This document shows, in pieces, positions 31,373 through 35,542 of a stretch of DNA of 64,000 nucleotides (position 1 is its first letter; the number at the start of each line of letters is the position of its first letter). The stretch spans positions 2,418,001-2,482,000 of the forward strand of contig NZ_JQLI01000001.1 of the NCBI RefSeq assembly GCF_000744095.1, given 5' to 3'. This DNA comes from Cupriavidus necator A5-1. Its GTDB lineage: Bacteria; Pseudomonadota; Gammaproteobacteria; Burkholderiales; Burkholderiaceae. The notes under the pieces were generated by a model. It had not been told where the DNA came from and ran no database searches. It saw only the letters and a list, made by a program, of their open reading frames with translations. The translations under genes and the position numbers were made by a program.

Positions 31373-31846
31373 ATGCCATCGATCGAGCTGGACCGTACCG
31401 ATCGCCGCCTGCTGGGGGTCTTGCAGGAGCACGGGCGCGCTTCCAACCTGGAACTGGCCGAGGCCATCGCGCTGTCGCCGGCGCAGACTTTGCGGCGCCA
31501 CCGCCGCCTGGAAGAGGCCGGCCTGGTAAAGCGCTATGAGGCGCGACTGGATGCCGCCGCGCTGGGCCTGGGCGTGGTCGCGTTTATCCATGTGACGATG
31601 GAGCGGGGCCATATTCGCGACCTGTCCAACTTCAAGCGGCTGGTGGCGGAACTGGCGCAGATCCAGGAGTGCTTCTCCGTGACCGGGGATATCGACTACG
31701 TGCTGAAGGTGGTGGCCAAGGACCTGAAGTCACTGTCGGACTTCCTGCTCGATACTCTGATGCGCATTCCGGGCGTCAGTGGGGTGAAGTCGAGCGTGTG
31801 CCTGGACGAGATCAAGTGCACCAGTGCCGTGCCGCTGGAGACGTGA
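31373..31846 (+). CDS. Lrp/AsnC-family regulator, probable activator of hppD cluster
   Basis: A 157-residue Lrp-type protein. Helix-turn-helix: LDRTDRRLLGVLQEHGRASN then LELAEAIALSPAQTLRRHRR. The ligand-binding RAM domain follows (GVVAFIHVTMERGHIRDLSN, ECFSVTGDIDYVLKVVAKDL, GVSGVKSSVCLDEIK). GAGGAAA lies about eight bases before the ATG. It is divergent from hppD, and Lrp-type regulators in this position are usually activators responding to tyrosine or phenylalanine. Effector is inferred. Confidence 0.92.
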   Translation: MPSIELDRTDRRLLGVLQEHGRASNLELAEAIALSPAQTLRRHRRLEEAGLVKRYEARLDAAALGLGVVAFIHVTMERGHIRDLSNFKRLVAELAQIQECFSVTGDIDYVLKVVAKDLKSLSDFLLDTLMRIPGVSGVKSSVCLDEIKCTSAVPLET

Positions 31847-31868: not shown

Positions 31869-33860
31869 CTAGGCCGGAGTCTCCGGGTCCTGCCGGTCGC
31901 ACTGCACGTTCATTTCGCGGCACACCGCGCACCAGGACGGCCGCGAACCCGGCTTGGCGCGGCAGCGGGCAGCATCGTCCACCTCGGGCGCTGCCGCCAG
32001 CCCCGGCAAGGCCACCCGGTAAGGCGGCAACCCGCCGGCGCAAGCCCGCGCCACTGCTTCATCCAGCGCCTGCAGCCCGACCGGCTTGACGATCACGGCA
32101 TTCATGCCGGCGTCCAGCGCCGCCTGGTGGTCTTCCGCCACGGCACTGGCGGTGCAGCCGATCACCGGCACGCAGCGGACCGCGTCCTCGCGCGCCCGCA
32201 CGGCGCGCGTGAAGGCGAGGCCGTCCATCATCGGCATCGGCGCCGAGGCACAGGCGCGGCTCTTCGAACCATTCGAGCAGGTGCACGGCCTATCGGCGTC
32301 CAGGCTGGCCAGCGCATCGCGGCCGTCGCAGGCGGTGCTCACCCGGTGGCCCAGGTGTTCGAGCTGGCGCTGTAGCAGCAGCCGGTTGGGCGCGTGGTCG
32401 TCGATCATCAGGATGCGCGCGTGACGCCGTGCGCAGCAGGCCACCGGCGCGCATGGCGGCGTGTGATCCTCGACCACGGTGGCAACCGGCAGCGGCAGCG
32501 ATACCGCCACCCGCGTGCCTGCCCCGGGCTCGCTGGAGAGCGTGATCTGGCCGCCCATCGCGCTGACCAGGCGCTGGCAGATTGCCAGCCCCAGCCCGGT
32601 GCCGCCGGCCTGCGGGCGCGACAGGCCGTGCACCTGCTCGAATGGTTCGAAGAGCCGCGCCTGTGCCTCGGCGCCGATGCCGATGCCGGTATCCGATACC
32701 GTCAGCAGCACCTGCTGCACGCCGTCGCGGGGCGGCTGCGCGTCCAGCGCGACGTGGATGGTGCCGTGGTCGGTAAAGTGCACCGCATTGGAAACCAGGT
32801 TGGCCAGGATCTGCCGGAAGCGCAGCCCGTCGACCTGGTGCAGCGGCGCCAGGCTCTCACCGAGGTCGCTGCCAAGCGACAAGCCTTTCTGCGCAGCCAC
32901 GGGGCCGAAGATCAACAGCGTGTCCTGCACCAGTCCCGCGAGCACGGCCGGCGCGGGCTGGATGCTGAACTTGCCGGCCTCCATCTTGGACAGGTCCAGG
33001 CTGTCGTCGATCAGCCCCAGCAGGCCCAGCGCCGACTTGTGGGCCGTGACCAGCTGCAGGCGTTTGTCCTCCGACAGCCGGCAGCGCGCCAGCGTCAGTT
33101 CCAGCATGCCGGTGATGGCGTTCATCGGCGTGCGGATCTCATGGCTGACCGAGGCGAGGAAGGTGGACTTGGCCCGGTTGGCGGCCTCGGCCTCGGTCTT
33201 GGCCTGCGCCAGTTCGGCCAGCATCTCGTGGCGTTCGGTCAGGTCCACGCAGCCGCCGGCCAGCCCCTTGACGGTCCCGTCGGCACCGCGCAGCGGCGTC
33301 AGCCAGTTGAGTACATGGTGGTTGCGATCGCCCAGCCGCAGGCAGCGGTCCTTGAGTAGCGGCGCGCCGTCTTCAAGCACCTTGCGGTAGTCGCGTGCCA
33401 CCTCGGCCATGTCGGTGACGATGGGGTGCACATGGCCCGCTGCGTCCAGCCCCTGACCGCGCAGCGTGTCGCGCGTGGCACCGACCAGTTCCTCATAGCT
33501 GCGGTTGCAAGTGATGAGTCGCAGCGAAGCATCGCGCAGGTAGACCGGTTGTGGAATGCCGTCGAGCAGCGCCGACTGGATCGCGGCCTGGTCTTTCAGC
33601 GCGATCTCGGCCGCGCGCCGCAGGCGCACCTCGCGATAGAGCATGACGATCCAGGCCAGCAGCAGCGGCGTCAGGAAGCACAGCACCGAAGCGGCCCACC
33701 ACAGCATGCGTTGGTGGGCGCTGGCCTGGGCCGGCGTGGTCGCAGCCGCGTGGAGCGACAGGTCGAGCAGCAGGATGACGGCCCCGGCGATGGGCCAGGC
33801 GCGGACAGGTTTGGGGGAGCGGTCAGGCAAGCGGGACGGCGAGGAGCGATGGAAAACCAA
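31869..33860 (-). CDS. Hybrid sensor histidine kinase with disrupted receiver domain
   Basis: A 663-residue membrane kinase. Two hydrophobic segments (about 22-40 and 52-75) flank a short periplasmic loop; a PAS domain follows at about 95-210, then HisKA with the phosphorylated His240 in FLASVSHEIRTPMNAITGML, and a HATPase domain at 300-455 (N box ILANLVSNAVHFTDHGT, G boxes TVSDTGIGIG and GGTGLGLAI). The receiver at 481-610 keeps the acidic pair (LMIDDH), MDG and the lysine (VIVKPVG), but residues 524-544 come from an inverted copy of the ATPase segment and the phosphoacceptor aspartate is gone. Divergent from the LuxR-type regulator and Hpt genes. Kinase activity is plausible; relay through its own receiver is not. 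Confidence 0.9.
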   Translation of the reverse strand: MVFHRSSPSRLPDRSPKPVRAWPIAGAVILLLDLSLHAAATTPAQASAHQRMLWWAASVLCFLTPLLLAWIVMLYREVRLRRAAEIALKDQAAIQSALLDGIPQPVYLRDASLRLITCNRSYEELVGATRDTLRGQGLDAAGHVHPIVTDMAEVARDYRKVLEDGAPLLKDRCLRLGDRNHHVLNWLTPLRGADGTVKGLAGGCVDLTERHEMLAELAQAKTEAEAANRAKSTFLASVSHEIRTPMNAITGMLELTLARCRLSEDKRLQLVTAHKSALGLLGLIDDSLDLSKMEAGKFSIQPAPAVLAGLVQDTLLIFGPVAAQKGLSLGSDLGESLAPLHQVDGLRFRQILANLVSNAVHFTDHGTIHVALDAQPPRDGVQQVLLTVSDTGIGIGAEAQARLFEPFEQVHGLSRPQAGGTGLGLAICQRLVSAMGGQITLSSEPGAGTRVAVSLPLPVATVVEDHTPPCAPVACCARRHARILMIDDHAPNRLLLQRQLEHLGHRVSTACDGRDALASLDADRPCTCSNGSKSRACASAPMPMMDGLAFTRAVRAREDAVRCVPVIGCTASAVAEDHQAALDAGMNAVIVKPVGLQALDEAVARACAGGLPPYRVALPGLAAAPEVDDAARCRAKPGSRPSWCAVCREMNVQCDRQDPETPA
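32229..32685. repeat. 63-nt perfect inverted repeat inside the hybrid kinase gene
   Basis: Positions 32229-32291 are the exact reverse complement of 32623-32685; the two arms are 331 bp apart. The right arm encodes the normal HATPase segment around GAEAQARLFEPFEQVHGL. The left arm, read antisense to that, encodes RPCTCSNGSKSRACASAPMP in the receiver domain. The left arm starts exactly at a codon boundary and is 21 codons long, so the frame is kept. The donor is the ATPase copy, because it is the one that matches the protein family. Confidence 0.95.
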
Positions 33861-34201
33861 CGATGGAAAACCGAAGGCGTCCGCGGCCCGGCAGGCGCGG
33901 CGGACGCAGGATAGTCCCCACTCTATGGGCGTGATCCCGCCGTCTGATTAAGACATATCTGAAAATCGGTGTGGAAATTTCCGAATCTTATGTAGCGGTC
34001 GCCTGCGCAGCGACGTTTCGATCCATTCAGAAATTGCGGCATGGATTGCCGCGCGGCCGATTGACGGGTTATTGGGAAAAATCGTAGTGCTCCTCGGAAA
34101 ATTCCGGTGCCTTCCGGAGCAAATGCTGAGCACAATGCGGTGACATGGCGCTGCGTGCCCGCTCTTCCGGACACCAAGGCGTTCGCTATGGAGTTCAAGC
34201 T
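33861..34201. other. Divergent kinase/response-regulator intergenic region
   Basis: About 340 bp between the two divergent starts. Near the kinase start there is a short direct repeat (GATGGAAAAC twice within 33848-33872) and a hairpin with GCGTCCGC at 33877-33884 pairing with GCGGACGC at 33900-33907. The region 33945-34110 is AT-richer than its surroundings and probably holds the promoters. The last 57 bp could be coding if the response regulator starts at 34145. Confidence 0.5.
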
Positions 34202-34825
34202 GTGGCCACAATCCTGATCGTCGACGACCACCCCCCGGTGCGTGTCGTACTCAAGACGCACTTGTCGCAGATGCTGGGCGTCACGCATGTCCTGGAGGCA
34301 GACAACGGCCAGGCCGCCATCGAGATCGTGCGGCAATACGCCCCCGACGTGGTGATCCTGGATCTCGACATACCCAAGATCAACGGCCTGGAGGTCATCC
34401 CGCGCCTCAAGGCCATCCACCCCGGCGTGCGCATCCTGGTCCTTTCAGGCCAGGACCAGAACACCTTTGCGCCGCGCGCGCGCCAGGCCGGGGCGCACGG
34501 CTACGTCAGCAAGACCCAGGAACTGCCGGAAATCGTGCGCTGCGCGGAATCGGTCCTGGCCCGTTATACCGTGATGCCGGAAATCGATCGCAGCAAGGCC
34601 GAGCATCCCGACGAGGACGCCCGCCTGGCCAGCCTCTCGGACAAGGAGCTGAGCATCATGCAGATGCTGGCCAAGGGCATGACCAACAAGGAAATCGGCG
34701 ACACGCTGTTTATTTCCAACAAGACGGTCAGTACCCACAAGACCCGGATCATGGAAAAACTCGGTGCCAGATCGATCGTCGATGTCATCGATTCTGCGCG
34801 GCGCCACCATATTGCGATCGGCTAG
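34202..34825 (+). CDS. NarL/FixJ (LuxR-HTH) response regulator, BvgA-like
   Basis: A 207-residue response regulator. The receiver starts ATILIVDDHPPVRVVLKTHL, with the phosphoacceptor aspartate in VVILDLDIPKINGLEVIPRL and the switch lysine in GYVSKTQELPEIV. The C-terminal LuxR helix-turn-helix is LSDKELSIMQMLAKGMTNKE followed by NKTVSTHKTRIMEKLGARSI. The GTG at 34202 is chosen because the receiver begins directly after it and GGAG lies eight bases upstream; an in-frame ATG at 34145 would add 19 residues. It is followed by an Hpt gene and is divergent from the hybrid kinase, so the three form a Bvg-like phosphorelay. Confidence 0.88.
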   Translation: MATILIVDDHPPVRVVLKTHLSQMLGVTHVLEADNGQAAIEIVRQYAPDVVILDLDIPKINGLEVIPRLKAIHPGVRILVLSGQDQNTFAPRARQAGAHGYVSKTQELPEIVRCAESVLARYTVMPEIDRSKAEHPDEDARLASLSDKELSIMQMLAKGMTNKEIGDTLFISNKTVSTHKTRIMEKLGARSIVDVIDSARRHHIAIG

Positions 34826-34870: not shown

Positions 34871-35542
34871 ATGACCGGGGCGCTGCTCCTTGCCGGGCCC
34901 GGCGACGCGCGCTGGGCCGCTGGCGTGGGGGAAATCCTGCGCGGCCTGGGTTTCACCATCCAGACTACGGCGCACGCGCCGGCTGCCACGGCGGACATTG
35001 GCGTGGTGCTGGCCGGACCTGACGGCGCCTGCACGCTGCGCGCCTGGCACGCCGACGGCGCCATCTGCGCCGTGGTGCTGCCCGCCGATGCGCCGACGCC
35101 GGCCGAGCAGTGCAAGCCCGTCATCGCACGGCTGCGCGAACGGGTGACCGAAGCCGCCATCCTGGAGATGCTGGCCAACCACCGCTACCTGGCCTTGTCC
35201 GCGCGCGAGGCGGCCGGCATCCCCGCTGCACTCGCCGAACAGACCATGGGCGACCCCGAATTCGCCGCCGAACTGGTGCACGCGCTGGCGACCTCAACCC
35301 AGGCCGATCTGGCGCAGTTGCGCGCCGCGGGCAGCGACCTGGAAACCCTGCGCAGCATCGCCCACCGGCTGAAGCCTTCGGCGCACTACGCCGGCTGCCA
35401 GTCGCTGCGGGCGCTGGCGCAACGCCTGGAGCATGCCGCCCGCGACGGCGATGCGGCAACCACCGCGGCGCTGGCCGCGATTTTCGTGCCGACCGTGGCG
35501 CGGCTGCTCGATCTGCTGGCGGCACTGCCGACAAAAAAATAA
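34871..35542 (+). CDS. Stand-alone histidine phosphotransfer (Hpt) protein
   Basis: A 223-residue protein. The first 90 residues look like a degenerate receiver-like or alpha/beta domain without the phosphoacceptor residues. Residues 125-220 form an Hpt helical bundle, with the phosphorylatable histidine expected at His165 in LRSIAHRLKPSAHYAGCQSL and the following helices LRALAQRLEHAARDG. It starts 46 bp after the response regulator. In BvgS-type systems the Hpt is fused to the kinase; here it is separate. It would pass phosphate from a hybrid kinase receiver to the regulator, but the neighbouring kinase receiver lacks its aspartate. Confidence 0.8.
   Translation: MTGALLLAGPGDARWAAGVGEILRGLGFTIQTTAHAPAATADIGVVLAGPDGACTLRAWHADGAICAVVLPADAPTPAEQCKPVIARLRERVTEAAILEMLANHRYLALSAREAAGIPAALAEQTMGDPEFAAELVHALATSTQADLAQLRAAGSDLETLRSIAHRLKPSAHYAGCQSLRALAQRLEHAARDGDAATTAALAAIFVPTVARLLDLLAALPTKK

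Follow-up and report, generated by a model that had tools for sequence, protein, structure and literature searches.

Introduction

Short inverted copies can arise when DNA synthesis changes template. In great apes most such switches follow one of two orders of switch points, 3-2-1-4 being one of them, and in the gold-standard set the copied length has a median of 12 and a maximum of 128 nt (PMC7954356). For quasipalindromes of Escherichia coli, a switch of synthesis to the nascent strand is an established process (PMC7202029). It makes an imperfect palindrome that was already present perfect; the reporters use one of 18 bp. In yeast coding genes, switching at inverted repeats produces multinucleotide protein changes, with at most 5 neighbouring residues altered in the cases described (PMC8604942). 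A separate literature concerns receiver domains without the phosphoacceptor aspartate, which make up 2.0% of sampled PF00072 domains (3,111 of 152,269; PMC12632262).

Here we analyse a hybrid histidine kinase gene of Cupriavidus necator A5-1 in which part of the receiver has been replaced by an inverted copy of a segment of the same gene's ATPase domain. As in the great-ape four-point switches, an inverted templated insert of about 60 nt, inside the reported range of lengths, replaces a short stretch, and the order 3-2-1-4 yields a single inverted repeat; the kinase case differs in lying in a bacterial coding gene, in its length of about five times the median and in the distance of about 330 nt between points 1 and 2 (PMC7954356). 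With the E. coli quasipalindrome mutations it would share a short excursion templated by the nascent strand, through which the arms gain complementarity, whereas the kinase has acquired a new 63-nt arm (PMC7202029). With the yeast cases it shares a multinucleotide protein change, but 12 residues have given way to 20 and a catalytic residue is lost (PMC8604942). The altered domain resembles the aspartate-less receivers (PMC12632262) in matching PF00072 without Asp while keeping other active-site residues; unlike these, it owes the loss to a replacement that also removed the third beta strand, and its likely phosphotransfer partners still adjoin. The mechanism is already known, and the kinase event is a bacterial case of it and not a new system. 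Searches of an open-access library listed no paper in which we recognised this locus or an equally large event in a bacterium. The best explanation in our judgment, and a highly probable one, is that DNA synthesis made one short-range template switch, with resulting loss of the phosphorelay.

Results and Discussion

An Exact Inverted Copy within One Kinase Gene

The window (the whole 64,000-nt stretch of DNA that was analysed, positions 2418001-2482000 of contig 1 of the source genome G000) contains two 63-nt arms that are exact reverse complements of each other (32229-32291 and 32623-32685, 63/63 nt), separated by 331 nt and both located within one hybrid histidine kinase gene of 663 codons starting from TTG (table 1). 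Extended to 32229-32295 and 32619-32685, the match covers 67 nt with one mismatch. Direct comparison confirms this inverted copy, which the initial annotation had pointed out, together with the assignment of the right arm to ATPase coding sequence: its product is IGIGAEAQARLFEPFEQVHG plus two bases of the following codon (L), within the HATPase_c domain. The left arm starts, in gene direction, at nt 1570, which is codon 524, and reads RPCTCSNGSKSRACASAPMPM.

Table 1. Features of the kinase locus in window coordinates.
Feature	Position	Strand	Basis
Hybrid histidine kinase gene: PAS, HisKA, HATPase_c, receiver, conserved Cys-containing tail	31869..33860	-	ORF, Pfam, orthologs
HATPase_c domain, residues 344-458	32487..32831	-	Pfam
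Receiver domain, residues 483-603; Ser539 replaces phosphoacceptor Asp; acidic pair, Thr and Lys kept	32052..32414	-	PF00072 3.6e-15, alignments
Pasted inverted copy (left arm), codons 524-544	32229..32291	-	Exact reverse complement of 32623-32685; absent from 28 site-reaching relatives
Source (right arm), HATPase segment IGIGAEAQARLFEPFEQVHG	32623..32685	-	Exact match to left arm; alignment with relatives
Entry junction; 7 nt over which the sister's receiver equals the source strand; the present window has one mismatch	32289..32295	-	Comparison with G032
Entry junction partner at source	32619..32625	+	Sequence comparison
Exit junction; 2 nt exact, 8/9 nt shared with the sister's receiver	32229..32237	-	Comparison with G032
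Exit junction partner at source	32677..32685	+	Sequence comparison
Response regulator, receiver and LuxR-type HTH, open frame; likely relay output	34145..34825	+	Pfam, alignment
Hpt-domain protein encoded separately, frame open; likely partner of the kinase receiver in phosphotransfer	34871..35542	+	Pfam, alignment

A window-wide scan (arms of at least 30 nt, 14-nt seed, within 3000 nt) returned the arm pair and only one other, of 32 nt at 81%. In the 1.2 Mb scanned of contig 1 of G000, an assembly of 9 contigs and 9.74 Mb, no second pair of exact inverted arms reaches 24 nt at a spacing of 30-5000 nt; the same scan over 0.4 Mb of the sister genome G032 found one pair, of 26 nt. A chance repeat is ruled out by the window-wide scan together with this uniqueness in the 1.2 Mb scanned. 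A donor elsewhere in the genome was likewise rejected: the source is the left arm's only match among the matches listed, and the source region's further listed matches lie at different loci, with identities of 71-93%, the highest of them over 29 nt. Among the matches listed for the assembly there is no second copy of the kinase gene, the next best having 36% identity. Four records of the plasmid collection have short stretches, 42-88 nt long, that match the HisKA-coding part of the gene.

The Insert Is Derived

The polarity of the change can be read from relatives in the same genus. The search covered 60 genomes including G000, and the best loci, L010-L038 (29 besides G000's own), were compared; one of the 29, L031, ends before the site. 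The CDCxMP phosphoacceptor motif is present and the extra codons are absent in all 28 loci that reach the site, the sister G032 included. Two of these, L037 and L038, have an identity of only about 50% and may not be orthologs. Since 28/28 carry Asp without the extra codons, the insert is the derived state, and an inherited, shared receiver form is ruled out by the same ordinary receivers. The initial annotation had asked whether orthologs bear the same 21 codons; none was found in the other species compared.

The sister, at 96% identity over 1,100 nt of the kinase gene (1060/1100), permits the replaced stretch to be delimited. In place of the 12 codons of G032 (36 nt, FDVIVCDCAMPV) there are 20 codons (60 nt) in the window, a net gain of 24 nt that leaves the frame intact, so that the left arm indeed sits in the receiver as an in-frame segment. 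An AGG codon is common to both at the replaced stretch, and the original estimate of about 13 codons replaced by 21 is accordingly corrected to 12 out and 20 in. The ATPase-domain source segment still aligns with G037, G014 and G019 (it is deleted in G032), and therefore the source was copied and pasted in reverse, with nothing moved.

Junctions and Probable Mechanism

Both junctions carry microhomology. At the entry, the G032 receiver agrees over 7 nt with the window's source read on its reverse strand, a match across two genomes (the source of G032 being deleted) in which the ancestor's letter is assumed; the window's own entry site has one mismatch to the source. At the exit, 2 nt match exactly and 8/9 with one mismatch, where the window has the source's letter. 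Among 400,000 random point pairs drawn in the gene, an entry match of at least 7 nt occurred at 3.0e-4, and an 8/9 exit match, a measure picked after the sequence was seen, at 4.5e-4. When the site was compared with the reverse-complemented source region in relatives having both, the best local match was reached by 91, 39, 41, 33, and 147 of 200 shuffles; no inverted similarity beyond shuffles is thus present in 5/5 relatives, and therefore the repeat did not pre-exist.

Switch points 3-2 fall in the source and points 1 and 4 in the receiver, giving the order 3-2-1-4. We put forward that the growing strand, at a 7-nt sequence common to the receiver and to the opposite ATPase strand about 330 nt away, would have re-primed on that opposite strand at the shared 7 nt, copied about 60 nt backwards from the ATPase segment and returned to the receiver at the second near-match, skipping 36 original nt and leaving the 60-nt inverted copy. 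We infer the strand and direction of synthesis, and that this was a single event. The state of the relatives, the retained source and the microhomology at both junctions support the fold-back template switch over receiver beta-3 and the phosphoacceptor that had initially been proposed.

A double-strand break closed by microhomology-mediated joining, with a templated inverted insert taken up and no running fork involved, would be expected to leave the same product: microhomologies at both ends, 36 nt lost and 60 nt inserted suit either route, and the two are inseparable by sequence alone. Break repair, however, calls for two ends and two separate annealing steps, and a single fork excursion is simpler; we therefore regard repair as an unlikely origin, albeit the least unlikely of the alternatives.

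Age of the Event

With the replaced segment left out, the kinase genes of the window and G032 show a synonymous distance of 0.125 and a total coding difference of 6.2%. An event at the split from G032 would predict about 6 differences between the arms, that is (0.0625 for a neutral pasted arm + 0.031 for the source arm) x 63, against 0 observed in 63 nt and 1 in 67 nt. By a 95% Poisson bound we estimate that the event falls within roughly the last half of the branch leading from the G032 split, a span that widens to the last three quarters when the junction mismatch is included. The event had been called recent on the strength of the complete identity of the arms; this holds only in the sense of that half (or three quarters) of the branch, but a very recent date is not implied.

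The Altered Receiver and Its Likely Relay

The replacement took out the third beta strand together with the Asp and some of the loop behind it. In the window receiver the core strand FDVIV has become mostly polar residues and the Asp position is Ser539, while the alignment bears out the earlier remark that the acidic pair and switch Lys are retained, as is the Thr. The AlphaFold model of the window receiver (9-sequence alignment) has a mean pLDDT of 74.7, and the blocks that cover the replaced segment average 60, 51, and 65. In the position of beta-3 the model has a short strand (residues 66-69 of the piece), and beta-2 is unassigned. The receiver of a C. necator relative (8 sequences) reaches a mean pLDDT of 85.0, with 93 and 89 in the beta-3 and Asp-loop blocks, and shows five strands. 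AlphaFold still builds a receiver-like fold for the window, so the model gives no proof of misfolding.

According to Pfam, adjoining genes encode HisKA, HATPase, receiver, Hpt, and output regulator, a neighbourhood suggesting that the kinase, Hpt protein and LuxR-type regulator form a His-Asp-His-Asp relay. The regulator and Hpt genes adjoin the kinase in 5/6 relatives examined with wide flanks. A regulator match above 60% is missing within the 1.5-kb flank in 8 of the 27 loci L010-L036 (L017, L027, L028, L030, L032, L033, L035, and L036); for L028 the regulator was found further off, in L047. Without its Asp and with a weakened beta-3, the altered receiver is predicted to be unable to pass phosphate to Hpt, which would leave the relay to the LuxR-type regulator switched off in this strain.

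Two side observations concern these loci. L017 (G043), a fairly close kinase relative (71%), has no regulator match above 60% within 1.5 kb, possibly through loss or rearrangement. The C-terminal tail of the kinase (window 31869-31940, minus strand) carries the motif WCxxCxxxNVxC. A pattern search over the 27 loci L010-L036 recovered it in 24; of the other three, L031 ends before the tail, and L016 and L021 gave an unrelated stretch. L037 and L038 are without the motif. As a guess, this Cys tail is possibly metal-binding or redox-active.

Other Lesions in the Relay and Selection

An addition to the initial annotation is that three relatives have other lesions in the same relay. In G032 the relay is broken twice (locus L119, 10680-13225), by a 379-nt deletion that fuses the ATPase part of the kinase to its receiver part and by a frameshifting 2-nt deletion in the regulator gene. 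In G019 (L122, 8049-10229) a 1-nt deletion in the receiver just past the MD of MPVMDG causes a frameshift, and the regulator and the N-terminal part of Hpt are gone, about 1.8 kb by difference of spacing. The G032 and G019 assemblies comprise 3 and 4 contigs. G014 (C. lacunae; L121, 10099-12010) has a 14-nt receiver deletion, with Hpt and regulator each matching in one piece; this genome is a draft of about 250 contigs, in which small indels could be sequencing errors. To judge from the different molecular changes, the lesions would be independent. With unrelated lesions in three further lineages, some members of the group seem able to do without the relay. Over the 27 loci L010-L036 the kinase matches in one piece in 22 and in pieces in 3, L031 being cut by a contig end and L036 matching only from probe residue 126; ten further loci, L039-L048, several from the same genomes, were left out of these counts.

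Rates of substitution do not show relaxed selection on the kinase. With the replaced segment left out, dN/dS is 0.341 against G032 and 0.268-0.358 against five other relatives; with it included, the values are 0.366 and 0.301-0.365. With the segment left out, the G032 value thus falls within the range of the five other relatives. The regulator gives 0.284 against G032 and 0.123-0.187 against four others, and the G032 figure says little about the window since the regulator of G032 is itself frameshifted; for Hpt the values are 0.468 and, in five others, 0.372-0.490. Polarised with the outgroup G037 and with the segment left out, the changes on the window branch are 15 synonymous and 14 nonsynonymous, those on the G032 branch 15 and 13, with 9 undecided. 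The Lrp-type regulator that adjoins the kinase (31373-31846) encodes a protein 100% identical to that of G032 (15 synonymous, 0 nonsynonymous), a conservation that contrasts with the fast-changing relay genes beside it.

Loss or Change of Function

Function might have changed rather than been lost, the altered receiver folding as an aspartate-less pseudo-receiver that works without phosphorylation, and several observations agree with this: the frame is kept, the Pfam match stands at 3.6e-15 with the acidic pair, Thr and Lys in place, most of the fold is retained in the predicted structure, the window's regulator and Hpt genes are still open, and Asp-less domains account for the fraction of PF00072 given above (PMC12632262). 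The window domain, a PF00072 match without the phosphoacceptor Asp, itself counts as an aspartate-less receiver. Against a working pseudo-receiver speak the loss of the FDVIV core strand to mostly polar residues with low pLDDT there, the lesions that break the relay in G032 and two others, and the further kinase changes Ile287 to Ser and Arg361 to His, at which four aligned relatives have Ile and Arg. We consider change instead of loss rather improbable, a shade more so than break repair. A bolder form of it is a one-step, in-frame birth of a foldable pseudo-receiver with an extra eight-residue loop, acting as a phosphorylation-independent regulator of the open Hpt and LuxR-type partners. This is a long shot; if true, a single replication error turned a phosphorelay kinase into a phosphorylation-independent regulator.

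Artefact and Inversion

The allele is present in one assembly only, and a chimeric fold-back read carried into the consensus could in principle imitate it. Fold-back chimeras are a known library artefact; such a read has one junction and then runs on. The kinase allele has two junctions, precise to the base, around its 60 nt; it lacks 36 nt of the original with the frame kept, and at its entry junction one letter does not match the source. The locus is moreover single in the 9-contig, 9.74-Mb assembly, with no second gene copy among the matches listed. Because the two precise junctions, the lost stretch, the kept frame and the differing letter would all need explaining, we hold an assembly or library artefact to be very unlikely. 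Site-specific inversion or a mobile element, for which nothing speaks beyond the inverted arms themselves, has practically no probability: the source is still in place with only the copy inverted, and the 331-nt spacer encodes part of the kinase and is co-linear with G037, G014, and G019.

Implications

On the template-switch reading, the locus offers a clean, polarised bacterial example in which a fairly long switch rewrote a catalytic protein segment, together with a sister sequence without the change and two readable junctions. Such events can escape annotation, Pfam still naming the altered domain a receiver. Finally, unrelated relay lesions in four Cupriavidus lineages, the present one among them, raise the question of what this relay does, and when it is dispensable.
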